Origin: Bacteroidaceae bacterium
Lineage (GTDB): Bacteria; Bacteroidota; Bacteroidia; Bacteroidales; Bacteroidaceae
Direction: 5' to 3'
Assembly: GCA_017965425.1 (NCBI GenBank)
Contig: JAGCPY010000003.1
Coordinates: forward strand, 36,160 to 100,159
DNA: 64,000 nt
Position numbers and translations under genes: made by a program
The notes under the pieces: generated by a model
Told to the model about the DNA's origin: nothing
Database searches by the model: none
The model's input: only the letters and a program-made list of their open reading frames with translations
Shown: positions 11,628 through 55,759 of the stretch, piece after piece
Layout of the letters: each line of letters starts with the position of its first letter
Numbering within the stretch: the first letter of the stretch is position 1

Positions 11628-11715
11628 ATCGCGTGTACACCTTCGGCTCGGAAGGTGTACACTTTCGGCCTGGAACGTGTACACCTTCTGTCAGGAACGT
11701 ACGGACGTTCAGAGG
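11628..11715. repeat. 22-bp quasi-palindromic array A (4 units)
   Basis: Units begin at 11628, 11650, 11672 and 11694. The best are GGAAGGTGTACACTTTCGG and GGAACGTGTACACCTTCTG. The last unit overlaps the stop codon of the TonB receptor gene. Same family as arrays B to F. Confidence 0.88.
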
Positions 11716-13928
11716 CGGACGCGCACACCTGCGAGGACGAAGATGCCGGGCTGGGGGATGTTGCCGAGGTCGAAGTAGCGCTTGTTGAAAAGGTTGGTGG
11801 CTTCGGCCCACAGTTCGTAGCGGCGTGCCGTCCAGCGGAGTTTCAGGTCGAGGGTGGCGTAGGGGTCGTAGGGGACCAGACGTCCAGTGGATTGCGCGTT
11901 CTCGTAGAGGAGGTAGGCGCCCATGCGGTCCTGCCAGCGCAGCGTCCATGCGGCGGAGAGGCGGCTGACGATGGGGTGGGAGAGGGTGGCCACGAGCTTG
12001 TGGCGTAAATACTCCATCGCGTAGTTCGACTTATAGATGACGACTTCGTCGTGGCGCTGTTGGTGGATGAAGGCGTAGGCGAGGTCGAGGGCGATTGGCG
12101 ATGGCTTGTGCGAGGTCAAAGCGCGGGGGCAGACAGGCGAAATCTGGAAATGGGCCTGGGCCTGAAAGCCCATGTTGTCGAGATTGAAGTTGGCGCTGTG
12201 GAAGACGTCGTCGGCGCTGTACATGACCCAGTCTATCATGTTGTTCCCGCGATGGTAGAAGGCTTTGAGGGTGAGCGAGAGGGCAGAGCTCGGTTCCGGC
12301 ATCGAGCTGAGCCGTCGGGCGCAGTGGAGGGTTGTCCCAAGCTGCACGCTGTGACTCTCTTCGGCTTGCATCCCCTGGTTGCCTTCGTGGGTGGGCGATT
12401 TGTAATAGAGGTCGGTGAAGGTGGGCAGACGAAAGCCTTTGTTGTAGCTGGCAAAGAGCCGCCAATGGGCGTTGGGCGTGTAGGCGATGTCAATGCCTGG
12501 ATAGAGTCGGAAGTGGTGGTCGAAGCGCGAGTTTCTGTTGGCCAGCAGGCCAGCGCTCACTGTCCAGTGTGTCAGGGTGAGCGTGTGCTCGGCGTTGAAA
12601 CTGAGGTTGGTGCGCGAGTCGGCTTTGGTGTAGGTGCCTCCCATGTATCCGTCTCGGGGTTGCAGGGTTGCCCGTCCGAGGCTTGAGCTGTGTATGTTCT
12701 CCTCCCTCACTTCGGTGCCGATGGCAGTGCGGCCTGCAGCCCAGGCGAGGCTGGCGCTGACGCGGGCTCCGTGGACGTCGCTCTGGTGGAAGTTCTCGCC
12801 TGTGGCGGTGTGGCGGATGAGCTGGAAATTGTCGAGGAGGCGGTTCCAGTAAATCTCCGGACGCACACGCACGCGTCCCTTGGTCTCTGCCCCTGCGCTG
12901 AGAATGAACCGACGGTTGTGCTCCCACTGATTCGGGTAGGCGGCGGAATAGAAAGTGTTGGCGCCGTAGGCCTTTTCGCTGTAACCTGCTTGCAGGTCGA
13001 GGCGGAAGTCCGTGGCGTCGTACTCGCCGTACAGGAAGACTTGCCCTTTCCGGAAGTCGCTGTTCGCCGTGGCACCGTCGGAACGGAGGTAGGAGGCAGA
13101 CAGTGAAGACGAAAACACCTCGGAAGACCCTCCCCCCGCCCTCTCCGTCAAGGAACGGGCGGTGTGTGCCAGACTGGTTGAAAGGCGTATGTCTGCCCCG
13201 AAGGTGGCGTAGCTGCCTCCTTGCGCTCCGCCTTCAACAGACAAAAGCCTTGAAGGGATTTTGGAATTTGCTCCCTCCCTAAAAGAGAGGGCGGGGGGAG
13301 GGTCTTCCGAAGGGCTGCTCGTGCTTTGTCTGTTTCTTGTCACGATATTGATGGCTCCTCCGAAAGCCGAGGCTCCGTAAACGCGCGAGGCTGCGCCTTC
13401 GAGGATTTCGATGCGCTCGATGTCTGCAAGGCCGACAGGGAAGTCGGCGGCAAGGTGTCCGGTGTGTGGGGAAGAGATGTTGACGCCGTTCAGGAGGATG
13501 ATGATCTGGTCGAACGTGCCGCCATTGATGCTGATGTCCGATTGAATACCAAAGCCGCCACGTTGTCGGACGTCCACGCCGACGGCTGTTTTCAGGAGGT
13601 CAGTGACGCTTTGCGCCGCCGATGCCTCGATTTGCTGGCGGGAGATGATGCCCACGATGCGTGCCGATTGCAGCGCCGTGAGCGGCGACATGGTTCCCGA
13701 GACGGTCACTTCGGAAAGTTCGGTCTCGTCGTCCTCGTCGTCAATGCTGCGGTTGACGGTCGGCTGCATGGCCTCTACCTTGGGGATGATCATGCTGGCC
13801 ATCATTCCAACAGTGAGGACGCCAATGCGCACTTCCCGGTGCAGGCTCGCGAAGACGGCATAGCCTTTGCGGCAAAACCGACGGAAGGTGACCGGCGCGT
13901 TTGCGCGTGAAAAGTGTTTACGTTTCAT
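11709..13928 (-). CDS. TonB-dependent outer-membrane receptor (BtuB-like size)
   Basis: A 739-residue receptor. After a long basic N-terminus and hydrophobic segment comes a TonB-box-like LSEVTVSG (about 71-78), then the plug domain (RQQIEASAAQSVTDLLK, GVDVRQRGG, ADIERIEILEG-type region, YGASAFGGAINIVTRN) and a barrel ending in aromatic-rich strands (NLFNKRYFDLGNIPQPG, GVRVRL). It imports a ligand across the outer membrane with TonB energy; the small size resembles cobalamin or metal-chelate receptors, but the ligand is unknown. Two Pro- or Gly-rich loops after the plug are encoded by arms of a perfect inverted repeat (13121-13309). Downstream of trkA by 55 bp, probably in the same transcript. 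Confidence 0.87.
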   Translation of the reverse strand: MKRKHFSRANAPVTFRRFCRKGYAVFASLHREVRIGVLTVGMMASMIIPKVEAMQPTVNRSIDDEDDETELSEVTVSGTMSPLTALQSARIVGIISRQQIEASAAQSVTDLLKTAVGVDVRQRGGFGIQSDISINGGTFDQIIILLNGVNISSPHTGHLAADFPVGLADIERIEILEGAASRVYGASAFGGAINIVTRNRQSTSSPSEDPPPALSFREGANSKIPSRLLSVEGGAQGGSYATFGADIRLSTSLAHTARSLTERAGGGSSEVFSSSLSASYLRSDGATANSDFRKGQVFLYGEYDATDFRLDLQAGYSEKAYGANTFYSAAYPNQWEHNRRFILSAGAETKGRVRVRPEIYWNRLLDNFQLIRHTATGENFHQSDVHGARVSASLAWAAGRTAIGTEVREENIHSSSLGRATLQPRDGYMGGTYTKADSRTNLSFNAEHTLTLTHWTVSAGLLANRNSRFDHHFRLYPGIDIAYTPNAHWRLFASYNKGFRLPTFTDLYYKSPTHEGNQGMQAEESHSVQLGTTLHCARRLSSMPEPSSALSLTLKAFYHRGNNMIDWVMYSADDVFHSANFNLDNMGFQAQAHFQISPVCPRALTSHKPSPIALDLAYAFIHQQRHDEVVIYKSNYAMEYLRHKLVATLSHPIVSRLSAAWTLRWQDRMGAYLLYENAQSTGRLVPYDPYATLDLKLRWTARRYELWAEATNLFNKRYFDLGNIPQPGIFVLAGVRVRL
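13121..13309. repeat. 25-bp perfect inverted repeat inside the TonB receptor gene
   Basis: 13121-13145 and 13285-13309 are exact reverse complements (core GACCCTCCCCCCGCCCTC), 139 bp apart. Both arms are in frame without stops, and encode SEDPPPALSF on one side and ERAGGGSSEV on the other, in the region just after the plug domain. Confidence 0.92.
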
Positions 13929-13983
13929 CGATAAGGAATCAAAAGAGTTAAGAAAAGGTATAAAAGAAAGAGGCGTTTCTTTC

Positions 13984-15363
13984 TTAGTGGAACATGCTGA
14001 AGAGTCCGCCTTGCGGCTTCTTGAAGAAGTGGTCGAGCTGTTTGAACAAGGCCGTTCGCGAGAAGACGACTACAAGGTCGCCGGGCAAGATTTGTGTGTG
14101 GCCGTTCACGAGCTGGCCGACACCGTCGCGAACTATGCCGCCGATGGTGATGCCCTTTGGCAGTCCGAGCTTCATCACGGGTGCCTTCGTGACGGGTGAG
14201 CCTTCCACGGCCACGAACTCGGCCACGTCGGCGTCGGCGATGGTGAGGCTCTTCACGCTGGTGACGTCGGCGTCGAGCATCATCTGGTAGATGTGGCTGG
14301 CGGCGATGGCCTTCTTGTTGATGATGGTGCCGATGTCCAGCTTCTCGGCCATCGTAATATATTCCATGTTCTCCACCAAGGCGACGGTCTTTCGGATGCC
14401 CATGCGCTTGGCAGCCAGGCACGCCAGTATGTTGGTCTCGGTCTCTGCGGTGAGGGCGCAGAAGGCTTGCGTCTGGCGGATGCCCTCTTCCTGCAAGAGC
14501 TGCGTGTCCCTGCCGTCGCCATTGATGATGAGCACATCGTCGTTGTCCAGGATGTCCGTCAGCTGCTGACAGCGCACAGGATCCTGCTCGATGACCTTGG
14601 CTTCCATGTAGTCGGGTAAGAGGTGGCAGGTCTGCACGGCAATACGTCCGCCGCCCATGATGATGAGCTTGCGCACGTCGGGGTAGCCGTCCTTGCCCAC
14701 CAGCTTCCGAATGGTCGGCACGAACTTCTTGGTGGTCATGAAGTAGGCGATGTCGTTGAGCTTCAGTTCGTCAAAACCGCCGGGGATGATGGTGTCGTCG
14801 TCGCGCTTGATGGCCACGATGTGGTAGGGCGAAGCGGGTGGACACAGGTCCTTCAGCTGTTGACCGAAGAGGGCGGTGGCTTCTTCGCGGAGCTTGATGC
14901 CGAGAATCGTCAGGGCGCCATTGTGCACATCCCACCACAGGCGGGCCCACGAGCGGCGCACGCCCTCGACAATCTCCTGGGCGGCAAGGACTTCAGGATA
15001 GATCAGCGACTCGATGCCCATCGAGGTGAAAAATTCACGGTTGCGCTCCTGCAGGTATTCTGCATTGTCGATGCGGGCGACGGTCTTGCGGGCGCCAAGG
15101 CTATGGGCCAGCATACAACACGTCATGTTCTTTGTCTCGGAAGGTGTGACGGCGATGAAGAGGTCGGCCTGCGGAGTTCCAGCCTCCTTGAGGCCGCTGA
15201 TGCTGGTGGGCGAAACGCAGAGGGTCATCAGGTCCAGACCGTCGGTGGCTCGCGCCAGCTTGTCGCCATCGGGGTCGATGAGCACGATGTCGTGGTTCTC
15301 TTTTGAGAGGAGTCCTGCCAAGTGGCTGCCTACGGCGCCGGCGCCGGCGATGATGATTTTCAT
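13984..15363 (-). CDS. trkA: Trk potassium uptake regulator TrkA
   Basis: A 459-residue protein made of two tandem RCK units, the full length of TrkA. The first NAD-binding motif is IIAGAGAVGSHLAGLL at the N-terminus and the second is LIIMGGGRIAVQTCHLL at about residue 233; each is followed by a RCK_C domain (ATALFGQQL, VAVEGSPVTKAPVMKLGLP). TrkA sits on the cytoplasmic face of the TrkH K+ channel and gates it in response to nucleotides. It follows dxs after 75 bp, a linkage known in Bacteroides, but no trkH is next to it here; a TonB receptor gene takes that place. Confidence 0.92.
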   Translation of the reverse strand: MKIIIAGAGAVGSHLAGLLSKENHDIVLIDPDGDKLARATDGLDLMTLCVSPTSISGLKEAGTPQADLFIAVTPSETKNMTCCMLAHSLGARKTVARIDNAEYLQERNREFFTSMGIESLIYPEVLAAQEIVEGVRRSWARLWWDVHNGALTILGIKLREEATALFGQQLKDLCPPASPYHIVAIKRDDDTIIPGGFDELKLNDIAYFMTTKKFVPTIRKLVGKDGYPDVRKLIIMGGGRIAVQTCHLLPDYMEAKVIEQDPVRCQQLTDILDNDDVLIINGDGRDTQLLQEEGIRQTQAFCALTAETETNILACLAAKRMGIRKTVALVENMEYITMAEKLDIGTIINKKAIAASHIYQMMLDADVTSVKSLTIADADVAEFVAVEGSPVTKAPVMKLGLPKGITIGGIVRDGVGQLVNGHTQILPGDLVVVFSRTALFKQLDHFFKKPQGGLFSMFH

Positions 15364-15438
15364 GTCTTGAGGGTGAGTGTTTGGGGCTTTTACGGCTCAC
15401 GGGACGCTGGCGTCTCATGAGTGTCAAAGGTATTCAGG

Positions 15439-17340: not shown

Positions 17341-17357
17341 GACAATAAATTTCGGGG

Positions 17358-17365
17358 CAAAGATA
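17358..17365 (-). promoter_or_regulatory. Promoter -7 box for dxs
   Basis: TATCTTTG on the minus strand ends 18 bp before the dxs start, giving a leader of only about 10 nt. Confidence 0.65.
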
Positions 17366-17472
17366 AGGAAAAATAGAACGCAACGTCTCAAAGAAGGCGG
17401 GTTTTTATGCAAAGAAGCCATGAAATGATGATTTTTCGCCTCTCCCGTGTACCTTCGCGTGTAAGAATTGTG

Positions 17473-17480
17473 TAACTTTG
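17473..17480 (+). promoter_or_regulatory. Promoter -7 box abutting the GSCFA start codon
   Basis: TAACTTTG followed by CCCC and then the ATG at 17485. With the usual distance from -7 box to transcription start, the mRNA would begin at or within a few bases of the start codon. No clear -33 TTG is seen. Confidence 0.6.
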
Positions 17481-17484
17481 CCCC

Positions 17485-18435
17485 ATGAAACTGCAAACAA
17501 CCATCGAAATTACACAGCCTAACCGGCTCATCGGCATACGCAGCCGCGTAGCATTCATCGGTTCCTGCTTTGCCGCATACATCGGTACGCGGATGCGTCA
17601 AAGCGGACTTCCCGCACTGGTCAATCCCTTCGGTGTCCTCTATAACCCGCTCAGCATCCTGCAAGTGATGATGCAGAACCCCATGCAAGAGCATCTCTAC
17701 TTCGAGGACAACGACCATCGCTGGCATTGCTGGCTCACTGACAGTTCGAAGAACGCCTCTTCCCTCGAAGCCTGCCAGGCGGGAGTGCTCTCGGCAAGAG
17801 GCCGACTCTTCGAATGGAACCCCGACACCCTGGTCCTCACCTTGGGCACCAACCGCTACTACGCCAGACCTAACCCCGCCGACATCAAGGGGTTGAAGGG
17901 CGAAGCAACGTTGGTGGTCGGCAACTGTCATAAGCAACCCCAGGCCGAATTTGTGGAGAAAGAGCTCTCCGTGGCCGAGGCTGTGGAGGCGCTGGACAGC
18001 GTGTGCCGCCTCTTCCCAAAAGCGCAAATCATTCTCACGGTTTCGCCCTACCGCTATGCCAAGTATGGCTTCCACGAGAGCCGCCTCAGCAAAGCCGTCC
18101 TCTTGCTGGCCGTGGACGAGGTCATCCGCAAGCGTCCCGAACAGGTCTGCTATTTCCCCGCCTACGAGATTCAACTCGACGAGCTGCGCGACTATAGATT
18201 CTACGCCCCCGACATGTTGCATCCTTCCGAGCAAGCGATTGACTACATCTGGGAACGCTTCGTCGAACGATGGCTCGACTCCGAGACCCACCGCTACCTG
18301 ATGGATTACGAACCCATCCGACGCGCACTCCAGCATCGGCCCGAAGACCCAGACTCGCCGGCCAGCATCCGTTTCCGTGAGAAAACACAGGAGCAACTGA
18401 ACCTGCTCCTTGCAAAATACAATATCGAACCCTAA
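17485..18435 (+). CDS. GSCFA family protein
   Basis: A 316-residue protein with the family's defining [14 protein letters not shown] (about 24-37) and the SGNH-hydrolase-like blocks [11 protein letters not shown] and [22 protein letters not shown] (D..H pair). GSCFA proteins are predicted esterases or hydrolases of unknown substrate, common in Bacteroidota. It lies 52 bp upstream of the murF-alr fusion, the usual arrangement in the group, so a role connected with the cell wall is possible. The start codon lies against the promoter, suggesting a leaderless transcript. Confidence 0.85.
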
Positions 18436-18444
18436 TCTTTCCGT

Positions 18445-18467: not shown

Positions 18468-18487
18468 CCTTCATCCATCACCCTTCC

Positions 18488-20869: not shown

Positions 20870-21153
20870 GCTTGCTGCGGGAAACTGTCATTCAAAAAGA
20901 ACGGCGTTCAAATCAACCACTAACGGGCTGGCTCCCTGGCCATGCTGCTGTTTGACATTGTTGGTCATCGGGAATACCAGCAATGATATACGGAATCACC
21001 GTTATGGGTAATCGGCTTCGCGTCTTTACGTCACACAAGTAAGGAACGTCGGCGAAGGGTTGAAGGTATTGACCTTCCAGCCTTCGCCGACGTTCCTTCA
21101 GCGGTTCACGTATTGACCCGTCTTGGTGACGATGTGTACGTGTTTGGGCCGAC
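20870..21153. other. Intergenic region between convergent murF-alr and kbl
   Basis: Non-coding. Besides the long hairpin at 21041-21098 nothing recognisable was seen; short open frames here are extensions of neighbouring shadow frames. Confidence 0.6.
21041..21098. terminator. Long hairpin, probable bidirectional terminator
   Basis: Arms of 27 bp (starting AAGGAACGTCGGCGAAGG) with two non-Watson-Crick positions and a 4-nt loop ATTG. It lies between two convergent genes and has no strong U-tract on either side. The stem is unusually long for a terminator. Confidence 0.6.
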
Positions 21154-26428: not shown

Positions 26429-26505
26429 TGGTGACTCCGGCGGGATTCTAACCCGCGACCTTCGGAACCGGAATCCGACGCTCTATACAGCTAAGCTACG
26501 GAGCC
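26429..26505 (-). tRNA. tRNA-Arg (anticodon CCG), CCA encoded
   Basis: A 77-nt cloverleaf on the minus strand. Acceptor stem GGCTCCG pairs with CGGAGTC (one G-U); anticodon stem TCGGA/TCCGA encloses the 7-nt loop TTCCGGT, giving anticodon CCG; T-stem GCGGG/CCCGC has a TTAGAAT loop; 3' CCA is encoded. It lies between the asnA promoter region and the GH43 gene. Confidence 0.95.
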
Positions 26506-26592: not shown

Positions 26593-26702
26593 ATAAGGTG
26601 CAGACGCGATGTGCGGAAGGTGCAGACGTTCGGGGCGGAAGGTGTTTACGTTCCGACGGGAAGGTGTTTACGTTCTGTAGGGAAGGGCTGTCGGTGGGAA
26701 CG
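26593..26702. repeat. 22-bp quasi-palindromic array B (about 5 units)
   Basis: Units begin at 26593, 26615, 26637, 26659 and 26681. The clearest are GGAAGGTGCAGACGTTCGG and two copies of GGAAGGTGTTTACGTTC. It ends about 50 bp upstream of the asnA -33 element; with the promoters it fills the 308-bp gap between tRNA and asnA. Confidence 0.88.
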
Positions 26703-36081: not shown

Positions 36082-37488
36082 ATGGAAACCCAGGAAATGC
36101 ACATCCAAGACAGATGGGGTCTTTGTCTGCAGCTGATACGTAATAACGTCACGCCGCAACAGTTTAGCACTTGGTTTGCCCCCATCAGCTTCTCTCAGTT
36201 CGACGAGGCACTCGGCGAGCTGACCTTGTGTGTGCCCAGCCCCTTCATCGTCGAATACGTCGAGGAGCATTTCCTTAAACTTCTGCGCGCGGTGCTCATG
36301 CGTGCCTACGGAGAGGGCGTACGTCTGCGCTGGACGGTCACCATCGATGCCACCCACCATCAGACCGAAACCGTCGAGGCCACCGACCGCAGCACCGCCA
36401 CGGGTCAAGCCGCGAAGACCGAGGACGGGAACAAGAGCCCTCAGCTGCTTCAGGCTTTGGACTCGCAGCTGAATCCCCGCTACACGTTCGATAACTTCGT
36501 GGAAGGCGCCCAGAACAAACTCCCGCGCACCGTCGGATTGGCCATCGCCCAGAACCCCCAACAGGTGACTTTCAACCCGCTTTTTGTCTATGGCCCGTCG
36601 GGTTGCGGCAAGACCCACCTCGTCAATGCCATCGGCACGCGACTGAAAGAGCTGCACCCCGGCAAGCGCGTCCTCTATGTGTCGGCCCACTTGTTCCAAG
36701 TGCAGTACACCGATGCCGTCCGCCAGAACAAGGTCAACGACTTCATCGCCTTCTATCAAAGCATCGACGTCCTGATCATCGACGACGTGCAGGAGTTCGC
36801 CACGCTGCAAAAGACCCAGCTGGCATTCTTCCATATCTTCAACCATTTGCATCAGAACCAGCGCCAGCTCATCCTGACCAGCGACCGTCCGCCCGTGGCC
36901 TTGCAGGGCATGGAGGAGCGGCTGCTGACGCGCTTCAAGTGGGGCCTGTTGGCTGAGTTGGAACGCCCCGGCGAGGAAATGCGCCGCGACATCCTGCGCA
37001 GCAAGATCCGCCACGACGGCCTGCAGATTCCCGAGGAGGTGGTCGCCTACATCGCCCGCACTGTCGATACCAGCGTGCGTGACCTCGAAGGCGTGCTCAA
37101 CGCCTTGTTGGCCTATTCCGTCGTGTGGGCACGCGACATCGACCTCCAGCTGGCAGAGCAGGTCATCCTGCGCACCGTCGGACAAGCCCGGAAGGAGCGC
37201 CCGCAGCTGACGGCAGAGCTTATCCTCGAACGCACGTGCGAGTACTTCCAGATCGATCCGCAGGAAGTCCTGTCGAGTTCGCGCAAGGCTTCTGTCGTGC
37301 AGGCTCGCCAAGTGGCGATGTACCTGACGCAAAAGCTGACCACGCTCTCGACCACGCGCATCGGCATGGCCATCGGTCGGCGCAACCACGCAACGGTGGT
37401 CCACTCGTGCCAGAGCGTCACACAGCGCATGGCCAGCGACCCGGCCTTCGGCGAGCGCGTCAAAGAGCTGGAGCAGATGATGAGCTGA
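36082..37488 (+). CDS. dnaA: Chromosomal replication initiator DnaA
   Basis: A 468-residue DnaA from ATG 36082, chosen because the promoter lies just upstream; a longer frame from 35989 would include it. Domain I is at about 5-90 (WFAPISFSQFDEALGELTLCVPS), a linker with acidic/Thr residues follows, then the AAA+ domain with Walker A GPSGCGKTHL, Walker B VLIIDDVQEF and sensor LTSDRPP, and domain IV with SSRKASVVQARQVAMYL and GRRNHATVVHSC that reads DnaA boxes. It opens the origin for replication. It converges on the giant surface-protein gene. Confidence 0.96.
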   Translation: METQEMHIQDRWGLCLQLIRNNVTPQQFSTWFAPISFSQFDEALGELTLCVPSPFIVEYVEEHFLKLLRAVLMRAYGEGVRLRWTVTIDATHHQTETVEATDRSTATGQAAKTEDGNKSPQLLQALDSQLNPRYTFDNFVEGAQNKLPRTVGLAIAQNPQQVTFNPLFVYGPSGCGKTHLVNAIGTRLKELHPGKRVLYVSAHLFQVQYTDAVRQNKVNDFIAFYQSIDVLIIDDVQEFATLQKTQLAFFHIFNHLHQNQRQLILTSDRPPVALQGMEERLLTRFKWGLLAELERPGEEMRRDILRSKIRHDGLQIPEEVVAYIARTVDTSVRDLEGVLNALLAYSVVWARDIDLQLAEQVILRTVGQARKERPQLTAELILERTCEYFQIDPQEVLSSSRKASVVQARQVAMYLTQKLTTLSTTRIGMAIGRRNHATVVHSCQSVTQRMASDPAFGERVKELEQMMS

Positions 37489-37542: not shown

Positions 37543-37630
37543 AGAAGGTGCACACTTTCCACGTGGAAGGTGTGCACCTTTTGCTTGTAGGGTGTGGACG
37601 TTCTGCCCCGAAGGTGTGGCCGTTACCTGA
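37543..37630. repeat. 22-bp quasi-palindromic array C (4 units)
   Basis: Units begin at 37543, 37565, 37587 and 37609; the first two are AGAAGGTGCACACTTTCC and GGAAGGTGTGCACCTTTTG. The first two together form a 16-bp hairpin with one mismatch, which may terminate dnaA and the convergent gene. The last unit overlaps the stop of the giant gene. Confidence 0.86.
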
Positions 37631-44685: not shown

Positions 44686-47013
44686 TTACTTGATGACCAC
44701 CTTCTGCCTGTGTCGTACATAGACTCCGGGCTTTGTGCGGGCACCTTGTGCGGGTCTCCCGCTGAGGTCGTAGAGCGTGGTGTCGTTCCCTCGGCTTCCT
44801 TCCCCTTTGGGAACTACCACGGATGTGGGCAGCTGCGGGTTGTTCAGTGTGGCTGTTAAGGCGTGCGCGCGTGCATCTGCCAGCAGGGCCGTTTTGACGG
44901 AAGCCGTCGTGCCCGTGAGCGTGGCGATGACATGTTCCCCGGCGGGCAAGCTGTCTCCTGAAGGCGCATAGCCAATGATGCGTACGCCCTCCCCGGTCGA
45001 GCGCAAGGCGGTGGCGATGCCTGCCTGGCGCGTGGCCTCTGTCACGGTCGCTGCCGAAGCACCATCCACTACGATGTCGAAGGCTGCCACGGGCTGTGCC
45101 GTGCGGAGGATGAGTCGTCCGTCACGCACATAGATGACAACCGCCTCTGTGCCCTTCTCTCTGCGGGCGGGAGCTGGGCGTATGCCCTCCGAGTGTGCGG
45201 CGCGGTTTCCTTGCGTCGTTTCTAATGGCTGTTCCAGCAACAGGCCCACCAGCCTGACGACGTCCTGAACAGTCATGTCGTCATCCGCATGTTGGTCGGC
45301 GGCGGTGAAGTTGAAGACTTCCTCATCGGACCATTTTCCCAGGCCGTAGTTGGCGGCTGCCTGTATGTCGAGGACGTTGAATGTGGCATCCATGTTGGCA
45401 TCACCGTCGGGGAAGTCCATGCGAACGCGCAGCGTGTGGGCCTGCCTGCCAGTGAAGAGCGAGGCCGTGACGGCGGTGAGCGTGTCGCCTGCCTGTCCAC
45501 GGAAGACGTTGTGATAGGCGCGCGCGGAAGAGTCCCATCGTGGGGTCAGAAGCGACGCTTCGTCGGTCGTGAAGAGCTGGGCGTACCAACTGTGGACGGT
45601 GTCGCCTGTGAGCAGCAGTTGCAGCTCCGGCTCATAGCGCTGCTCTTTGTGGCGGTAGAGGGCGATGGTGGGAACGCGTTCAATCAGTGCGCTGGTGGTG
45701 TCCATCAGAAGGCTGAAAGCATAGACACGGTCAATCTGTTGGGCACCGATCTCCAGTGTCGTCAGCGTCGAGGGCAACATGGGCGAGACGTCTGTCAGGC
45801 GGTTGCCCGTGGCACGGACAGCGGTGAGGGTGGGTATGGTAGCCAGTACGCCGAGGTTGCCCCCTATGGCGTTGTCCGTGAGGTCCAGCTCCTGGAGGGC
45901 AGGCAGGTCGCCGATGACGTCAGGCAGTTCGGCCCTGATGCCTGCGCCGTGCAGGTTCAGCGTGACCGCGTGCCCTCCGTGGCCCACGGTGACACCCTCC
46001 AGCGGAGGCGTCTCTACGGGCGAGTCGCCGAAGGTCCAGTGCCGTGGCCAATGGTCGCCGTCCATGCGAGCATAGGTCTCTTGAAGGATGCGCCAGTCAC
46101 CGATGTCGAGGACACCGTTGTTCCAGTTGTCCGGCGTCAGTTCCACAACGTACGTGGGACCCCATTCGCCTTGGGTGTTCTGGGCGTGCAGACTCAGGGT
46201 GTGGCGTCCTTCGGTGAGCGGGACCGTGGAGAGGTTCAGCTCCACGGCCGTTCCCCTCTCGGCGACGACGGCCTTGTTGACGGTGTCGTTGTCGATCCAG
46301 TATTCATATTGGGCGATTTCCAACGCTGTCACGTTCCATCGCGGGAGGTAGAAGAGGTGTCGGCTGACGTTGCCCACCTGTCTGTCGCCCAGCGCCCGAA
46401 GGTTCAGGAAGTGGATGCCTGTTTCGAGGCGGGTGATGTCGATGCTGGCGAGGGCCGTGCCTGCCGCAGATGCCGTGTAAGTGTGTTCGGTGTCGCTGTC
46501 GAACCAATACTCGTAGGCCGTCAGGACGGGGTCGGCTTCCCGTGTGGGCGGGAGATAGAAGAGGTGACGGCTGACGTTGCCCACCTGTCTGTCGCCCAGC
46601 GCCCGAAGGTTCAGGAAGTGGATGCCTGTTTCGAGGCGGGTGATGTCGATGCTGACGATGGCCGTGCCTGCCGCAGATGCCGTGCAGGTGTGTTCGGTGT
46701 CGCAGTCGAACCAGTACTCATAGGCCGTCAGGACGGGGTCGGCTTCCCGTGCGGGCGGGAGGTAGAAGAGGTGTCGGCTGATGTTGCCCACCTGTCCCTC
46801 CGAGTTCGTGGCGCGGAAGTTCAGGAAATGGATGCCTGTGGAAAGGTCCTCCAGTGGCAGGGTGAAGGAGATGTTTTTCTCTGCCGTTGCCACTACCGTG
46901 CGCGAGCCGTCGTCCGAGTCAAGCCAGTACTCATAGCTCCTGATGTCCTGAGCCTGGAAGGGCATGATGGACAGCAGCAGGAAGGAGAGCAAGGTGATTC
47001 TTAGGCTTTTCAT
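44686..47013 (-). CDS. Secreted repeat protein with LRR and dockerin-like segments
   Basis: A 775-residue protein with signal peptide MKSLRITLLSFLLLSIMPFQAQ. Residues about 25-300 hold four repeats of about 69 residues starting YEYWxDxD and ending GNxSRHLFYLP; copies 2 and 3 are nearly identical. Leucine-rich repeats follow (ALQELDLTDNAIGGNL), then a dockerin-like pair of calcium loops (GDANMDATFNVLDIQAAANYG, DDDMTVQDVVRLVGLLL), a beta-sandwich with VAAFDIVVDG, and a C-terminal sorting-type end (LYDLSGRPAQ, GVYVRHRQKVVIK). Surface protein of unknown role, 37 bp upstream of the giant gene and 9 bp after the 345-residue gene. Confidence 0.83.
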   Translation of the reverse strand: MKSLRITLLSFLLLSIMPFQAQDIRSYEYWLDSDDGSRTVVATAEKNISFTLPLEDLSTGIHFLNFRATNSEGQVGNISRHLFYLPPAREADPVLTAYEYWFDCDTEHTCTASAAGTAIVSIDITRLETGIHFLNLRALGDRQVGNVSRHLFYLPPTREADPVLTAYEYWFDSDTEHTYTASAAGTALASIDITRLETGIHFLNLRALGDRQVGNVSRHLFYLPRWNVTALEIAQYEYWIDNDTVNKAVVAERGTAVELNLSTVPLTEGRHTLSLHAQNTQGEWGPTYVVELTPDNWNNGVLDIGDWRILQETYARMDGDHWPRHWTFGDSPVETPPLEGVTVGHGGHAVTLNLHGAGIRAELPDVIGDLPALQELDLTDNAIGGNLGVLATIPTLTAVRATGNRLTDVSPMLPSTLTTLEIGAQQIDRVYAFSLLMDTTSALIERVPTIALYRHKEQRYEPELQLLLTGDTVHSWYAQLFTTDEASLLTPRWDSSARAYHNVFRGQAGDTLTAVTASLFTGRQAHTLRVRMDFPDGDANMDATFNVLDIQAAANYGLGKWSDEEVFNFTAADQHADDDMTVQDVVRLVGLLLEQPLETTQGNRAAHSEGIRPAPARREKGTEAVVIYVRDGRLILRTAQPVAAFDIVVDGASAATVTEATRQAGIATALRSTGEGVRIIGYAPSGDSLPAGEHVIATLTGTTASVKTALLADARAHALTATLNNPQLPTSVVVPKGEGSRGNDTTLYDLSGRPAQGARTKPGVYVRHRQKVVIK
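46346..46790 (-). repeat. 207-bp tandem repeats inside the 775-residue protein gene
   Basis: The same DNA block (for example CGGCTGACGTTGCCCACCTG) recurs at 207-bp steps from about 46361 and 46568, and less perfectly at 46775. It equals 69 codons. The close match of two copies at DNA level indicates recent duplication or gene conversion. Confidence 0.9.
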
Positions 47014-48099: not shown

Positions 48100-48165
48100 G
48101 TCACGTCTATACGTTCCGTCGGGAAGGTCTATACGTTCCTGTGGGAAGGTCTATACGTTCCGTCG
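48100..48165. repeat. 22-bp quasi-palindromic array D (3 units)
   Basis: Units begin at 48100, 48122 and 48144, with core GGAAGGTCTATACGTTCC. The centre CTATAC differs from the GTGTAC of other arrays but is constant within this one. It fills the gap between a nitroreductase stop and the start of the next gene. Confidence 0.88.
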
Positions 48166-48958: not shown

Positions 48959-48977
48959 TAAAAATATGTTGAAACTT

Positions 48978-49008
48978 TTGGCTGCGTGCGGGAATAATTC
49001 TAATTTTG
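48978..49008 (+). promoter_or_regulatory. Promoter for the 162-residue secreted protein
   Basis: TTG at 48978-48980, 20-bp spacer, TAATTTTG at 49001-49008, 36 bp before ATG 49044. Confidence 0.72.
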
Positions 49009-49043
49009 CAGCAGAATACTTGCAAATTCAAACCAAAAAGACG

Positions 49044-49532: not shown

Positions 49533-49576
49533 CAGCCACGGATGCGGAAAGACTCATACACAATGACTTGCTCATC

Positions 49577-52500
49577 ATGAAAAGACTCCTTCTCTTGCTG
49601 CTGGCAGCCTTGCCAGCGGTCGCTCGGCCACAGCACCAGCTTTATCCCCAACACTTCGACCTCTCGGAAGTGACCCTCCTCGAGAGTGCCTACAGCGAGG
49701 CCCTGGAAGGCAACGCACGCCTGTTGCTGCAATACGATGCCCAGCGCCTGCTCACTCCTTTCCTGCGACAGGCGGGCCTGCTCACCCGTGCCGGCAGTCA
49801 GTATGCCGGGTGGGGCGAAGCCCATCCCACGTTCCCGAACTGGGGACTCTCTGACTGGAGCCTCGAGGGACACGTCGGAGGTCACTATCTCTCGGCCTTG
49901 GCGATGACCTATGCCGCCACGCGCGATGAGACGCTGCGCACCCAGCTCCTGGAGCGTCTGAACTACTGCCTTGCCGTGCTCAAGGATTGCCAGAAGGCCT
50001 ACGAGGCGGACACGCAAGGCTTGCGCGGCTTCATCGGCGGACAACCCATCAACCAGGTGTGGACGGGACTCTACGCAGGCAATCTCACCGAGTTCCGCAA
50101 GTATGGCGGCTGGGTGCCTTTCTACTGTCAGCACAAGGTGCTGGCCGGGTTGCGCGATGCCTGGGTCTATGCCGGCAGCGAGACGGCCCGCGACTGCTTC
50201 CGTGGGCTGGCTGAATGGGCTGTCAACGTCGTCTCCAACCTTTCCGAAGCCGACATGCAGACCGTCCTGGGATGGGAACACGGCGGCATGAACGAGGTGC
50301 TGGCCGACGCCTTCTGCCTCTTTGGTGACGAGCGCTTCCTCAAAGGGGCACGCCGATTCAGCCATCAATACGAGATCAACGGCATGGAAGCCGACAACTA
50401 TAACCCTCATTTTCTCGACAACCAGCACGCCAACACACAGGTGCCCAAGTTCATAGGCTTCGAACGCGTCTGGAAGCAATATGTCAAGAGCGGAGCCAAA
50501 GACGACCTCTCGGCCTATCACCGTGCCGCCCTCCACTTCTGGGAAGACGTGACGGCCCACAGGACGGTGTGCATCGGAGGAAACTCCACATCCGAGCACT
50601 TCTTCGACCCCGCCAACGGACAACGATATATCAACGACGTGGACGGCCCGGAAAGCTGCAACACCAACAACATGCTGAAGCTCTCGGAACTGCTCTTTGA
50701 CGACACCCACGACGCGTGCTACGCCGACTTCTATGAGGCCGCCACGCTCAACCATATTCTCTCAACCCGTGACCCTGCCACGGGCGGATATGTCTATTTC
50801 ACCACCTTGCGCCCACAGGGCTACCGCATTTACTCGACGGTCAACAAGGGCATGTGGTGTTGCGTCGGCACGGGCATGGAGAACCACGCGAAGTATGCCC
50901 ATTTCGCCTACACGCACGAAGGCTCCGCCGCCCTCTACGTGAACCTCTTCGTGCCCAGTGAGCTGGACAACGAGGTCTTCGGCATCCGTCAGCAGACCAA
51001 CTTCCCTTTCATCGAGCCCCAGCAAAGTAACCTTCCTACCCCGCAGACGGCCGTCACCGAGCTGACCATCACGCGCGCGGGTACATATATATTATATGTG
51101 CGTCATCCGGCATGGGCGGGCAAGGAGTTCCAGGTCTTCGTGAACAACACCCGCGTGCAGACCGACGTGCGCGAGGGCGTGGCCTCCTACGTCGCCATCG
51201 ACCGCCAATGGCAGGTGGGCGACCGCATCACCGTGTGGCTGCCAATGACCCTGCGCACCGAGGCTTGTCCCGGCAACAAGGACTACGTCAGCTTCAAGTT
51301 CGGTCCCGTCTTGCTGGCTGCCAAGACCACCGCCTCCTCCAAGGAAGAAGCCCGGGAGACGGGGCTCGCCTACGAACAGCTCCAGAACGAATATGCGGGC
51401 GAGGGACGCATGGATCACGCACCGGGCAGCCGGGCCACCGTCAGAGACCTCAGCAGCGCCGCGCTTCTCATTGGCGACCCGAAGGACGTGCTGCAACGCG
51501 TGAAACCGCTGGATCTCAATCATCTGCGGTTCGCCATCGACGCCCAGAGCGAACAGTCGAAAGGCGCGTGGACGACACTCACGCTTGAACCCTTCTACGC
51601 CATCCACCACGCTCGTTATCAATGCTATTGGTATGCCGCCACCAAGGAAGACTATGAACAGAGCGACATGGGACGTGCCGACGCCGAAGCCGCGGCCCTG
51701 GCTGCGCGAACACTGGACTTCGTGGCCACAGGCGAGCAACAGAGTGAAGCGGGACACCGATACAAGTACAGCAGCGACTCAGGCACGGGAAGCTTCAACG
51801 GCGAGACCTACCGAGATGCACAGGCGAACGGCTACATTCAATACGTGCTCTCCAATCCCGACGGCCTGACCGAGGGACTGGCCATCATGTTGCGACTGAC
51901 CACGGCAGACAAAGGGCGCATGGGATATGTCACCATCGACGGCAAGCGCATCGCGGACATCACCGTGGCGGCCAGCGTGAAGGGGCAGGACGCCAGGGGA
52001 TTCTATCACCTCGAACTGCCCATCCCGGAGGAAATGATGCGCAAGGCCGACGGCACGCCCAAGCGAGAGATCACTTTCCGGCTGACGGCTTCGGCCACCA
52101 CGCCCATCCCCGGACTCTACTATGTGCGCCTGGTCAAGGACTATGACAATCACAGCTACACCTTTCGTGCACGCGACTGGCGCACAGGCGACCCGAACCG
52201 CGTCTCGCAGGACAATATCAGCTACGACGACGAGGCAAACACGCTGACCGTCAGTGCCACGGGAAACAACAACGTCGCTTTGTCACTGGACTGGCAGGGA
52301 CGTGACTATGAGCTGGATGGTGCACAGAAATTCCTCATCGTCAAAGGCAGCGACCTCTCACGCACCACAGGTGCCAGCTATCTCTGGTGGCTGAATGGCG
52401 TCAACCACGGGTCGCAGGTGGCGCCCACATCTACAAAGAAGGCTTCCGACGGCGACATCATCATCGCGTGGGACATGACCAAGAGCGGGCTCGACGCCAA

Positions 52501-52756
52501 TAATTCCGGCGATCGCTTCTCAATCTGTCAGGGGCAGACCATTTTCGGCCTCACCAGCACGAAAAGCGCATCCGTCATCCGCCATATCGGCTTCTATGAG
52601 AGCGTGGCATCCTTCGAGCGCCTCACCGCCATCCGTGAGGTGGATGAGCGGCGGTCTTCTGCCTTGGCCTACCGCTTGGATGGGATGCCCGCGACGGCGA
52701 ACGACCGTGGCATCATCGTCAGCAAAGGACGCAAGCTACTCGGCAAAGGCCATTGA
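49577..52756 (+). CDS. Beta-L-arabinofuranosidase-type glycoside hydrolase (GH127/GH146)
   Basis: A 1059-residue secreted protein from ATG 49577, signal peptide MKRLLLLLLAALPAVARPQ. The (alpha/alpha)6 catalytic domain covers about 30-470: EGHVGGHYLSALAMTYA, GWEHGGMNEVLADAF, HRTVCIGGNSTSEHF and GMWCCVGTGMENHAKY, with the Cys pair and Glu/Cys residues that bind zinc and perform catalysis in this clan. Beta-domains follow (about 480-1000; DUF4986- and malectin-like), and the end lacks a sorting motif. It probably removes beta-L-arabinofuranose from pectin side chains or plant glycoproteins. Confidence 0.88.
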   Translation: MKRLLLLLLAALPAVARPQHQLYPQHFDLSEVTLLESAYSEALEGNARLLLQYDAQRLLTPFLRQAGLLTRAGSQYAGWGEAHPTFPNWGLSDWSLEGHVGGHYLSALAMTYAATRDETLRTQLLERLNYCLAVLKDCQKAYEADTQGLRGFIGGQPINQVWTGLYAGNLTEFRKYGGWVPFYCQHKVLAGLRDAWVYAGSETARDCFRGLAEWAVNVVSNLSEADMQTVLGWEHGGMNEVLADAFCLFGDERFLKGARRFSHQYEINGMEADNYNPHFLDNQHANTQVPKFIGFERVWKQYVKSGAKDDLSAYHRAALHFWEDVTAHRTVCIGGNSTSEHFFDPANGQRYINDVDGPESCNTNNMLKLSELLFDDTHDACYADFYEAATLNHILSTRDPATGGYVYFTTLRPQGYRIYSTVNKGMWCCVGTGMENHAKYAHFAYTHEGSAALYVNLFVPSELDNEVFGIRQQTNFPFIEPQQSNLPTPQTAVTELTITRAGTYILYVRHPAWAGKEFQVFVNNTRVQTDVREGVASYVAIDRQWQVGDRITVWLPMTLRTEACPGNKDYVSFKFGPVLLAAKTTASSKEEARETGLAYEQLQNEYAGEGRMDHAPGSRATVRDLSSAALLIGDPKDVLQRVKPLDLNHLRFAIDAQSEQSKGAWTTLTLEPFYAIHHARYQCYWYAATKEDYEQSDMGRADAEAAALAARTLDFVATGEQQSEAGHRYKYSSDSGTGSFNGETYRDAQANGYIQYVLSNPDGLTEGLAIMLRLTTADKGRMGYVTIDGKRIADITVAASVKGQDARGFYHLELPIPEEMMRKADGTPKREITFRLTASATTPIPGLYYVRLVKDYDNHSYTFRARDWRTGDPNRVSQDNISYDDEANTLTVSATGNNNVALSLDWQGRDYELDGAQKFLIVKGSDLSRTTGASYLWWLNGVNHGSQVAPTSTKKASDGDIIIAWDMTKSGLDANNSGDRFSICQGQTIFGLTSTKSASVIRHIGFYESVASFERLTAIREVDERRSSALAYRLDGMPATANDRGIIVSKGRKLLGKGH

Positions 52757-52779
52757 GGCCTGACCACAGAACCCATCTG

Positions 52780-52822
52780 GAACGGAGCACATGATTCACT
52801 TTCGCGGTCATGTGCCCCGTTC
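52780..52822. terminator. Hairpin after the GH127/146 gene
   Basis: A 15-bp stem GAACGGAGCACATGA with one mismatch and a 13-nt loop, no U-tract. It shares GGAGCACATGAT and a similar loop with the tdh terminator at 23594. Confidence 0.6.
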
Positions 52823-52840
52823 TGTGTGCCCTCGAGGCTG

Positions 52841-52950
52841 GGAAGGTCTTTATTTTCAGTGCGGAAGGTGTGCACGTTCACGGTGGAAGGTGTGCACGTT
52901 CACGGTGGAAGGTGAACACGTTCGGCGAAAGAGGTGAATGCGTTCAGTGG
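52841..52950. repeat. 22-bp quasi-palindromic array E (5 units)
   Basis: Units begin at 52841, 52863, 52885, 52907 and 52929; two consecutive units are identical (GGAAGGTGTGCACGTTCACG). It lies between the GH127/146 gene and the nrdJ promoter, ending 40 bp before the -33 element. This and the hairpin fill the 344-bp gap. Confidence 0.92.
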
Positions 52951-52990
52951 TTCAAAAGAGAAAATTCTTTGAAAAATAATTGTACATAAG

Positions 52991-53021
52991 TTGTACGAAA
53001 CGGAAAAGTTCTGTAACTTTG
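52991..53021 (+). promoter_or_regulatory. Promoter for nrdJ with repeated flanking motif
   Basis: TTG at 52991-52993, 20-bp spacer and TAACTTTG at 53014-53021. ACGAAACGGAAAAGTTCTG inside the spacer recurs as CCGAAACGGAACATTCTG at about 53038-53055, just downstream of the transcription start. Confidence 0.75.
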
Positions 53022-53100
53022 CAGCGCAAAGAGTGGTCCGAAACGGAACATTCTGCGTCGGGGACGTAAAAAGAAACATTCACTTTTACCATATCATATT

Positions 53101-55695
53101 GTGGAACAGACTTATACCTACGATGAGGCTTTTGCAGCCTCACTTGCCTATTTTGAAGGCGACGAACTGGCCGCCCGCGTATGGGTGAACAAGTACGCCA
53201 TGAAAGATTCCTTTGGGAATATTTATGAAAAGAGTCCTGCCGACATGCATTGGCGCATCGCGATGGAGGTGGCGCGCATCGAGCGCAAGTATGCCAACCC
53301 GATGTCGTCTCAGGAAGTGTTTGATTTGCTGGACCATTTCCGCTACATCATTCCGGCGGGCTCGCCCATGACGGGCATCGGCAACCACTTCCAGGTGGCT
53401 TCCTTGTCGAACTGCTTTGTGGTGGGCTTGGACGGCGACAGCGACAGCTACGGCGCCATCATCCGCATCGACGAGGAACAGGTGCAACTGATGAAGCGTC
53501 GCGGCGGCGTGGGACACGACCTCTCGCACTTGCGCCCGGCAGGGTCGCCCGTGAAGAACTCGGCGCTGACGTCAACAGGTCTCGTACCTTTCATGGAGCG
53601 CTACAGCAACAGCACACGCGAGGTGGCGCAGGATGGCAGACGCGGGGCGCTGATGCTCTCTGTCAGTATCAAGCATCCGGACGCCGAAGCGTTCATCGAC
53701 GCGAAGATGACCGAGGGCAAGGTGACTGGCGCCAACGTCAGCGTGAAAATCGACGATGCCTTCATGCAGGCTGCCTCTGAAGGGAAACCTTATGTGCAAC
53801 AGTTCCCCATCGACAGCCCTGAACCTATTGTCTCGAAAGAGATTGATGCTTCGGCTTTGTGGAAGAAGATCGTGCACAATGCCTGGCAGAGTGCCGAGCC
53901 GGGCGTGCTGTTCTGGGATACAATACTGCGTGAGAGCGTGCCCGACTGCTATGCCGACCTGGGCTTCCGCACCGTATCGACGAACCCCTGCGGAGAAATA
54001 CCTCTCTGTCCTTACGATAGCTGCCGACTGCTGGCCGTCAACCTCTACAGCTATGTCCGCGATCCCTTCACGGCGAAAGCCAGCTTCGACTTCGACTTGT
54101 TCCGTGAGCACGTGCGTAAAGCCCAGCGCATCATGGACGACATCATCGACCTGGAGCTGGAAAAGATCGAACTCATCTTGCAGAAAATCGAGTCAGATCC
54201 GCAGAGCGAAGAAGTGAAGTTCAGCGAACGCAACCTGTGGAAGAAGATCTTGCGCAAGAGCTCGATGGGCCGACGCACGGGCGTGGGCATCACTGCCGAA
54301 GGCGACATGCTGGCGGCTCTGGGACTGCGCTATGGCACACAGGAGGCCACCGACTTCGCCGTCGAAGTGCAGAAGACGGTCTGCCTCTCGGCCTATGCCA
54401 GCAGTGTGCAGATGGCACGGGAGCGTGGCGCTTTCGAGATGTACAACAGCCAGCGCGAGGAGAAGAATCCGTTCATCCAGCGCATCAAGGATGCCGACCC
54501 GCAGCTCTACGAAGACATGGTGAAGTATGGACGTCGGAACGTGGCCTGCCTCACCATCGCACCCACCGGCACCACTTCCTTGATGACACAGACCACCAGC
54601 GGCATAGAACCGGTCTTCCTGCCTGTCTATAAACGCCGTCGCAAGGTGAACCCCAACGACCCGGAAGTGCACGTGGATTTCGTGGACGAAACGGGCGACG
54701 CCTTCGAGGAATACATCGTCTATCACCACAAGTTCCTCAAGTGGATGCAGGTGTGTGGACTCGATACCGACCGGCGCTACACGCAGGAGGAAATCGACGA
54801 ACTCGTTGAACAGTCGCCCTATTACAAAGCCACGGCCAACGACGTCGATTGGCTGATGAAGGTGAGGATGCAGGGTGCCATACAGAAATGGGTGGACCAC
54901 AGCATCAGCGTGACCGTGAACCTGCCGAACAGCGTCGATGAGCAGCTCGTGAACGACCTCTACATGGAAGCATGGCGCAGCGGCTGCAAAGGGTGTACTA
55001 TTTACCGCGATGGCTCGCGTAGCGGGGTGATGATCAGCGTCAGCAAGAAGAAGGAGAAGAAGAACACCGACGAGGAGGAACATCCAGACACGCCCGCTCT
55101 GGAGGACGGACATGAGCACGCCGTGCCCGAATGTCGCCCGCCCGAAGTCGTGGAGAAACGCCCGGAAGTGCTTGAATGTGACGTCGTTCGCTTCCAGAAC
55201 AATAAGGAGAAATGGGTGGCCTTCGTGGGCTTGCTCGACGGACGCCCCTACGAGATTTTCACGGGCTTGCAGGACGACGAGGAAGGCATCATGCTGCCCA
55301 AGAGCGTCACCAAAGGGCGCATCATCAAGCAGATGAACGCCGACGGCACAAAGCGCTACGACTTCCAGTTTGAGAACAAACGCGGTTACAAGACCACGGT
55401 CGAGGGCTTGAGTGAAAAGTTCAACCCCGAGTACTGGAACTATGCCAAGCTGCTCTCAGGCGTGCTTCGCTATCGGATGCCACTCGATCACGTCATTCGC
55501 CTTGTCGGTCAGCTCTCTTTCCAAAGCGAGACCATCAACACCTGGAAAGCCGGTGTCGAGCGTGCCCTGAAGAAGTACATCCAGGACGGCACAATCGCCA
55601 AAGGCCAGACCTGTCCCAACTGCGGACAAGAGACCCTCGTCTATCAGGAAGGTTGCCTGATCTGCACCAACTGCGGCGCCAGCCGTTGCGGGTAG
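53101..55695 (+). CDS. nrdJ: Adenosylcobalamin-dependent ribonucleotide reductase (class II)
   Basis: An 864-residue class II enzyme. GTG at 53101 is the start: there is no ATG before residue 32, and the promoter is 80 bp upstream. Catalytic cysteines lie in LSNCFVVG and NPCGEIPL; GGVGHDLSHLRPAGSPV and APTGTTSLMTQTTSGIEP are class II hallmarks. The C-terminus ends in a two-CxxC zinc-finger-like tail (CPNCG, CTNCG). It converts ribonucleotides to deoxyribonucleotides using B12, without oxygen dependence. No cobalamin riboswitch is recognisable in the short leader. Confidence 0.93.
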   Translation: MEQTYTYDEAFAASLAYFEGDELAARVWVNKYAMKDSFGNIYEKSPADMHWRIAMEVARIERKYANPMSSQEVFDLLDHFRYIIPAGSPMTGIGNHFQVASLSNCFVVGLDGDSDSYGAIIRIDEEQVQLMKRRGGVGHDLSHLRPAGSPVKNSALTSTGLVPFMERYSNSTREVAQDGRRGALMLSVSIKHPDAEAFIDAKMTEGKVTGANVSVKIDDAFMQAASEGKPYVQQFPIDSPEPIVSKEIDASALWKKIVHNAWQSAEPGVLFWDTILRESVPDCYADLGFRTVSTNPCGEIPLCPYDSCRLLAVNLYSYVRDPFTAKASFDFDLFREHVRKAQRIMDDIIDLELEKIELILQKIESDPQSEEVKFSERNLWKKILRKSSMGRRTGVGITAEGDMLAALGLRYGTQEATDFAVEVQKTVCLSAYASSVQMARERGAFEMYNSQREEKNPFIQRIKDADPQLYEDMVKYGRRNVACLTIAPTGTTSLMTQTTSGIEPVFLPVYKRRRKVNPNDPEVHVDFVDETGDAFEEYIVYHHKFLKWMQVCGLDTDRRYTQEEIDELVEQSPYYKATANDVDWLMKVRMQGAIQKWVDHSISVTVNLPNSVDEQLVNDLYMEAWRSGCKGCTIYRDGSRSGVMISVSKKKEKKNTDEEEHPDTPALEDGHEHAVPECRPPEVVEKRPEVLECDVVRFQNNKEKWVAFVGLLDGRPYEIFTGLQDDEEGIMLPKSVTKGRIIKQMNADGTKRYDFQFENKRGYKTTVEGLSEKFNPEYWNYAKLLSGVLRYRMPLDHVIRLVGQLSFQSETINTWKAGVERALKKYIQDGTIAKGQTCPNCGQETLVYQEGCLICTNCGASRCG

Positions 55696-55715
55696 AGGGT
55701 AAAGATAATCATTCC

Positions 55716-55759
55716 GGAAGGTGTACACGTTCCCGTTGGAAAGTGTACACCTTTCCGGC
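55716..55759. repeat. 22-bp quasi-palindromic array F (2 units)
   Basis: GGAAGGTGTACACGTTCCC at 55716 and GGAAAGTGTACACCTTTCC at 55738. The second unit is a near-perfect palindrome. It lies between nrdJ and folB and could fold into a terminator-like hairpin. Confidence 0.88.

Follow-up and report, generated by a model that had tools for sequence, protein, structure and literature searches.

Short arrays of a quasi-palindromic DNA unit repeated at a 22-bp step lie between genes in a 64,000-nucleotide stretch of a Bacteroidaceae bacterium genome (assembly GCA_017965425.1, contig JAGCPY010000003.1, positions 36,160 to 100,159; this whole stretch is called the window), and we consider it possible, with a probability of about 45%, that these arrays are helically phased protein-binding platforms that partition the chromosome. 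The proposal draws on the recurrence of the 22-bp step in units of different sequence, its persistence when neighbouring units are inverted, the short length of the arrays, and the mutual avoidance of arrays along the chromosome. The mutual avoidance is clear in Hoylesella loescheii and in the congener genome G126, weaker in the window's genome, and partial in the congener G027.

Results

The 22-bp unit in the window's genome

The initial annotation, made from the sequence of the window, had listed six arrays holding about 23 units. All six exist at the positions given, and loose chaining assigns 22 units to them (5, 3, 4, 3, 5, and 2). Matches to the 17-bp pattern GGAASGTNTANACSTTC with up to 2 mismatches number 31 in the window, compared with 0.24 expected from shuffling. 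The window lies on contig 22 of a genome of 3,728,598 bases in 96 contigs, and the genome-wide search revealed hundreds more units. When up to 2 mismatches are allowed, the unit has 364 matches on the forward strand and 366 on the reverse strand (29 on each in the control); for two units set 22 bp apart, with no more than 3 mismatches, the counts are 221 and 218 (none on either strand in the control). Within a sample of 830,829 bases of this genome that includes the window (the 0.83-Mb sample), 97 unit pairs are 22 bp apart, 5 are 21 bp apart, and none is 23 bp apart, while the reversed-sequence control yields 2 pairs at 22 bp. The 22-bp spacing reported for the window predominates in this sample: 72 of the 74 neighbour distances below 30 bp between good units are 22 bp and the other two are 21 bp. 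When up to 4 mismatches are allowed, there is no overall excess of unit matches (1175, against 1286 in the reversed control); the excess over control is confined to good units and to the 22-bp step.

Analysis of the unit indicated an 18-bp dyad, GGAAsGT-N4-ACsTTCC, with a free 4-bp centre, followed by a 4-bp variable spacer. This refines the earlier description of a nearly perfect dyad with four variable bases at the two s positions. Over 146 units, C/C (48) and G/G (44) together account for 92, and pairing combinations occur in 41 units, compared with 68 predicted by independence, so that the unit is a hetero-dyad. In a whole-unit dyad test, 20 of 47 arrays in this genome reach p≤0.05. Adjacent units have the same orientation in 37 of 44 cases and opposite orientations in 7, with the step unchanged, and the suggested phasing over two helical turns at the DNA level is supported.

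When the units of the 0.83-Mb sample were chained, they formed 69 loci, of which 52 contain two or more units and 17 a single unit. Intergenic placement, as noted for the window, applies to 50 of the 52 multi-unit arrays and to all 17 single units. The gene calls come from a home-made gene finder that missed or shortened some genes, so these and all other counts of gene context are approximate. Among the 45 loci without a nearby intact end of the miniature inverted-repeat transposable element (MITE)-like element described below, 14 lie in convergent gaps, a class that makes up 39 of the 307 background gaps (P=0.003). Another 8 of the 45 lie in divergent gaps, close to the background of 57 of 307, and the supposed association with promoters was not borne out. 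The frequent contact with gene ends was supported. The 3' bias of co-directional arrays is not significant in the window's genome (15/23, P=0.21); in co-directional gaps of G126, 26 of 33 arrays are closer to the stop codon than to the next start (P=0.001), at a median of 26 bp from the stop.

Different units at the same step in relatives

The exact two-unit pattern had no match in a species collection (84,980 species with one genome each, from which the window's genome and very near ones may be missing) and none in viral contigs. With up to 3 mismatches, 5 of the other 138 genomes in the genus contain it, none with more than 3 matches on a strand, and the unit thus appears, from these pattern searches, to be essentially confined to its species. 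Each of the five congeners of which 80 kb was sampled (G126, G134, G016, G129, and G161) has period-22 tandem repeats built from other units, and all 25 lag-22 arrays in them are intergenic. The units of G126, G134, and G016 do not resemble that of the window; G129 and G161 also carry further periods besides 22. A spot check of 20 more genomes of the genus (up to 20 kb each, 372,293 bases in total, with one 2,503-base stretch wholly masked and the stretches of G003, G009, and G022 picked near earlier pattern matches) revealed at least one lag-22 array in 10 of them. In 262,951 bases from four genomes that belong to other families of the order and have a lower G+C content, Tandem Repeats Finder (TRF) reported no period-22 repeat; another genome, which supplied only 816 bases, was left out. 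In 73 loci of other Bacteroidales, a weak peak is present at 22 bp (12, compared with 7 at 21 bp and 5 at 23 bp). The refuting conditions named in the initial annotation did not refute the observation: the genome holds hundreds more units, and relatives have lost the sequence but retain the 22-bp step, although only some of their units show a clear palindrome.

One of the other families has the core CCGCRYGCGG. At a 22-bp step this core gives 404 matches in G126, 418 in G027, and 197 in G154, up to 13 in ten other genomes of the genus, and none in the window's genome; the triple pattern is present in one contig of the viral collection. Chains of this family were built with steps of 21–23 bp, 22 being tried first, and units with other centres were left out of the orientation counts. 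Four units make up 35 of the 55 arrays, and five are commoner in G154. Among the adjacent pairs with readable orientation in the three genomes, 56 of 156 are mutually inverted, and the step between inverted neighbours is 22 bp in 50 of the 56 and 21 bp in 6. An unrestricted count of distances between near-perfect cores, a subset of the units, gave 31, 35, and 46 at 22 bp in G027, G154, and G126, respectively, and 1, 0, and 9 at 21 bp. Eleven of the 35 four-unit arrays contain a 21-bp step, always as a terminal interval, first or last. Many of the CCGC arrays have inverted caps, AACG/CGTT, often beginning with AAAACG and finishing with CGTTTT. In G126, 61 of 62 arrays are intergenic, with a median span of 98 bp (quartiles 93–118).

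The same arrangement was found in named species. In the cultured type strain Hoylesella loescheii DSM 19665, matches to pairs of the strain's own unit at a 22-bp step number 230 and 220, against 1 and 1 in the control, and the dyad GTTCCA-N7-TGGAAC with up to 1 mismatch has 597 (control, 16). The unit of Segatella baroniae has 52 and 42 matches in S. baroniae itself (control, 3 and 1) and 12 and 12 in H. loescheii (control, 4 and 4), the latter mostly in a second 22-bp family. Its counts are at control level in Bacteroides xylanisolvens (5 and 1, against 3 and 3 in the control) and in Phocaeicola vulgatus (2 and 2, against 6 and 3).

Two further loci were noted. At L293 517-717 (genome G076), two different 22-bp families stand back to back in one register, with dyad centres that by eye appear offset by 11 bp. 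At L247 4800-4920, in a contig of the viral collection, a CCGC-type 22-bp array directly follows an apparent tRNA 3' end, close to an edge of the stretch examined, and this is perhaps host DNA next to an integrated phage.

Spacing of arrays along chromosomes

The spacing of arrays was compared with chance placement. For H. loescheii, the loci are the exact matches on contigs 1 and 2 among the matches listed, which appear complete, and the null is uniform placement, not aware of genes. Among these matches, the 52 intervals have a mean of 17.8 kb and a coefficient of variation (CV) of 0.50, compared with 0.97 by chance (0 of 20,000 trials); the smallest interval is 6.9 kb, and none falls below 6.5 kb, against 15.5 expected. 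With six further loci included, the CV is 0.39. In G126, 61 arrays of several families have a mean interval of 7.3 kb and a CV of 0.44, compared with 0.80 by chance (0 of 3,000 trials), with 1 short interval where 14.5 are expected, and the result holds when the null is limited to gaps with at least 120 free bases. The avoidance extends across families: of the 35 non-CCGC arrays of G126, 1 is closer than 3 kb to a CCGC array, where chance predicts 6.5 (P=0.003), and in this genome the avoidance needs several unit families combined to appear. For the window's genome, 65 loci gave a CV of 0.69 against 0.95 (P ~0.002), and different array sets gave 0.66–0.76 against 0.91–0.95 by chance (P from 0.001 to 0.047). 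In G027, only the short intervals are fewer (2 compared with 7.1, P=0.006). The domain-organising role that had been listed as one possibility thus gains support, and the spacing data are new evidence for it.

Arrays and other features of the window

The features of the window are collected in Table 1. Besides the six arrays, a seventh 22-bp array with a different unit, absent from the initial list, and a single dyad unit were found. No common function was seen among the genes flanking arrays (nine proteins of the window and nine divergent loci), and the only Rfam match in the window at the gathering score, the window alone being searched, is one tRNA.

Table 1. Positions and surroundings of 22-bp arrays and a single unit in the window
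Feature	Position	Strand	Units	Surroundings
Array 1	11628..11715	.	4 (5 by loose chaining), 22-bp step	Overlaps stop codon 11709 of a minus-strand TonB-dependent receptor gene
Array 2	26593..26702	.	3 good units and degenerate neighbours	GH43 gene with tRNA-Arg (26429-26505) on one side, asnA on the other
Array 3	37543..37630	.	4	Between two convergent genes: dnaA ends at 37488 (+), ~2,340-aa gene ends at 37623 (-)
Array 4	48100..48165	.	3	11 bp from stop codon 48177 of a minus-strand nitroreductase-family gene
Array 5	52841..52950	.	5	Between a GH127-type gene (ends at 52756, array downstream) and a ribonucleotide reductase gene (starts at 53101)
Array 6	55716..55759	.	2	20 bp past the ribonucleotide reductase stop
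Seventh array	4253..4337	.	Different unit (ATATACGTGTTGCCAGATAGGG type), 22-bp	Between called genes
Single dyad unit	21061..21078	.	1	In the loop of a long terminator-like inverted repeat, 21040-21100 (by eye)

The surroundings of array 6 were compared in the seven nearest named loci by ribonucleotide reductase, which share 89–93% identity and carry the labels Bacteroidaceae, Bacteroidales, or Prevotellaceae, several of them from rumen. No counterpart of array 6 was seen behind the reductase gene in these seven by a lag scan and 330 bases read, the lag scan being a method that overlooks two-unit arrays, including array 6 itself; two of the seven loci carry a lag-22 array elsewhere.

A clustered regularly interspaced short palindromic repeat (CRISPR) array consists of repeats with unique spacers of similar length between them; this class was rejected for the arrays of the window, which have a period of 22 bp with about 4 variable bases between dyads. 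Separately, a 207-bp tandem duplication (2.2 copies, 94% match) lies at 46341-46796 inside the gene called at 44686-47013.

A MITE-like element near part of the arrays

A separate inverted-repeat element of MITE-like form is present in the window's genome, with 131 and 126 matches to its ends. In the loci where it was read (L039-L078, for example L049 961-1310 and L061 19390-19600), it has inverted arms, each with about four 11-bp GGTGAGGRATW repeats, and the two arms of the copy at L049 are closely alike by eye. Among the 138 other genomes of the genus, 4 have a match to its ends, a single one in each case and with 2 mismatches, and the element is essentially limited to the window's species. 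No autonomous partner was found, and no protein-based search for one was made. Of the 69 array loci, 24 have an intact end within 200 bp and 45 do not, a count that degenerate ends would escape. Conversely, 23 of the 53 intact ends in the 0.83-Mb sample have a unit within 150 bp, and in 11 of these 23 the first unit is 75–78 bp from the end motif. A subset of the copies looks alike on the array side, with flanking sequence in common by eye. The recurring 75–78-bp distance suggests that part of the arrays may travel with the element.

Discussion

Candidate explanations

The arrays could be selfish, non-autonomous mobile elements, alone or together with the MITE-like element, copied by a transposase and spaced by immunity, with no function for the cell. 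We regard this main rival explanation as unlikely, although several observations agree with it. Beyond the 24 loci near a MITE-like end and the copies that are alike on the array side, many CCGC arrays have inverted caps, the arrays seem to be recent gains when array 6 is compared with the seven reductase loci, and target immunity could likewise space the loci. The suggestion of a mobile repeat in the initial annotation is partly supported. On the other side are the 45 of 69 loci with no intact MITE end inside 200 bp, among which degenerate ends would be overlooked. The mutual avoidance of different families in G126 would not be predicted by sequence-specific immunity, the 22-bp geometry shared by unrelated sequences would need a further reason, and no transposase is tied to the arrays.

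A transposase of a defined kind, the repetitive extragenic palindrome (REP)-associated tyrosine transposase (RAYT), would be the source if the arrays were palindromes like REPs or bacterial interspersed mosaic elements (BIMEs). The arrays are indeed high-copy, extragenic, imperfect palindromes, and Y1-type transposase genes are present (16 matches in 9 of 14 genomes). Of seven Y1 loci examined, three have an array in the vicinity, at 257 bp from the gene in L061, about 450 bp from the match in L294, and about 790 bp away in L293; the other four have no lag-22 array within the 3.3 kb examined. The palindromes directly adjoining the RAYT gene at the loci read are other sequences, of the types GCCCTGAAAGGGC and CCCAGGGC..GCCCTGGG in the window's genome and G027. 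With other palindromes beside the gene, and an array within 300 bp at one of seven loci and further away in two, this source was rejected, and we consider a REP-like origin very improbable. The RAYT-type Y1 genes at L061 18440-19150 and L297 (~1538-1759) have REP-like palindromes alongside (GCCCTGAAAGGGC, CCCAGGGC..GCCCTGGG, and GCCCCAACGGGGC).

Transcription terminators or hairpins of 3' untranslated RNA, expanded as tandem repeats, would place arrays behind stop codons, where they are found. In congeners, a run of four T residues stands to the right of 18 of 37 arrays and to the left of 6; many CCGC arrays begin with AAAACG and end with CGTTTT, and the array in the viral-collection contig follows an apparent tRNA. 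There is no T-run excess in the window's genome, where a run of four T residues stands to the right of 3 of 29 arrays without a MITE end. The C/C and G/G oppositions preferred in the stem of the window's unit, and G-U on the sense strand (14) being not favoured over A-C (18), led us to reject an RNA hairpin for this family. For the CCGC family it was rejected on covariation: across 10 folds tried over 35 four-unit arrays, none had positive covariation (z from -4.2 to 0.7), the negative scores being partly a consequence of uniform unit orientation. The combination of hairpin, T-run, and covariation expected of an intrinsic terminator was not found, though CCGC arrays have T-runs at their ends, and the AAAACG/CGTTTT caps could let these arrays also end transcripts. 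We judge a primary role in RNA improbable. From the oppositions at the s positions, the orientation and step data, and the lack of a G-U preference, DNA rather than an RNA hairpin seems to be the object in the window's family.

Neutral minisatellites, arising by slippage at quasi-palindromes with a mechanical preference for 22 bp and purged from genes by selection, are slightly less probable still. The likeness of units within one array, and their mostly uniform orientation in the window's genome, fit such an origin. The opposite orientations of neighbours at the same step in the three CCGC genomes do not, nor does the fairly constant array length in G126, and mutual avoidance along the chromosome would be unexpected.

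Possible phased protein-binding platforms

A phased platform with a chromosome-scale role fits better than slippage, RNA, or REP-like origins, owing to the shared step in different sequences, its survival on inversion, the short length, and the avoidance. The array would be a DNA site of typically about 90–120 bp, or four to five 22-bp units, bound by a putative dimeric protein whose copies would be aligned on one face of the helix. Such sites, lying between genes and often just behind stop codons at mean intervals of about 7–18 kb, would serve as anchors or boundaries dividing the chromosome into nucleoid or supercoil domains, and possibly isolate neighbouring transcription units. The lineage would keep the geometry (22-bp step, short array, and genomic spacing), while the recognised sequence would turn over fast between species.

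The protein, its one-face binding, and the domain function are inferred, and several observations weigh against these platforms. Not all families are unrelated in sequence, as the units of G161, G129, and G003 resemble that of the window. In the spot check, lag 21 (10) is nearly as frequent as lag 22 (12), and among relatives the whole-unit dyad test reaches p≤0.05 in 11 of 37 arrays and is not significant in most. Taken by itself, the CCGC family lacks regular spacing in G126 (CV 0.94 against 1.02, P=0.46) and in G027 (0.74 against 0.84, P=0.36), and the arrays of G027 as a whole are not regular either (0.80 against 0.78, P=0.62). The deficit of short intervals in the window's genome is weak for the 65 loci (12 compared with 17.3, P=0.047) and not significant for all family-1 loci (12 compared with 14.5, P=0.24). 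The spacing produced by target immunity would be a further alternative, as noted above.

Overall, the interpretation in the initial annotation is partly supported. The mutual avoidance in most genomes tested points to a so far undescribed chromosome-organising signal. A wider and more tentative form of the proposal is that Bacteroidaceae and Prevotellaceae would share a chromosome-organising code set by geometry and not by sequence, in which a rapidly re-targeted dimeric protein, or one paralogue per family, would assemble on short 22-bp-phased arrays every 5–18 kb, and the families within one genome would fill one common spacing pattern. If a protein reads the arrays, they would serve as landmarks for organising the chromosome in a major group of gut and oral bacteria; if the arrays are mobile, the way they are spaced would represent an unusual form of immunity, one that acts between different families.

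Comparison with known systems

To our knowledge, known dispersed repeats are defined by their sequence. In the arrays described here, the sequence varies between species and within a genome. What stays the same is the step and the short length and, in most of the genomes tested, the avoidance of close neighbours. The matS sites of MatP and the parS sites of ParB are single sites with a conserved sequence and a known protein. The arrays would resemble them as dispersed palindromes that mark chromosome regions and differ from them as short phased arrays with changing sequence and no known protein.

No description of such a class of arrays was recognised in the open-access literature, a scope that excludes most subscription papers, and the accessible part of PMC5771137 contains nothing on such arrays. 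The nearest counterparts were compared through the accessible parts of their descriptions. BrickBuilt, a MITE-associated minisatellite of Porphyromonas gingivalis, has a 23-nucleotide unit of one family in 19 copies of 1 to 22.8 units, 16 of them with a leader and/or tail, and tandem repeats of 22, 23, and 41 nucleotides had earlier been reported in P. gingivalis W83 without exact locations (PMC4596501). It is similar to the present arrays in belonging to Bacteroidales, in its intergenic position, in its tandem unit of similar length, in its restriction to a species, and in the involvement of a MITE. Here, by contrast, most loci lack an intact MITE end, one step is common to several different units, and the arrays are short and spaced. 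PINSR of Prevotella intermedia is a 188-bp intergenic repeat with 177–184 copies and no terminal inverted repeats (PMC4755523). It is likewise a lineage-specific intergenic repeat of Prevotella relatives without terminal inverted repeats, and differs, by description only, in being one 188-bp sequence for which the accessible text describes no 22-bp step or spacing rule. REP and BIME elements with RAYT (PMC3733652) are also high-copy, extragenic, imperfect palindromes, often at the 3' ends of genes; the present arrays are distinguished from them by a fixed step, several units per genome, and other palindromes beside the RAYT genes.

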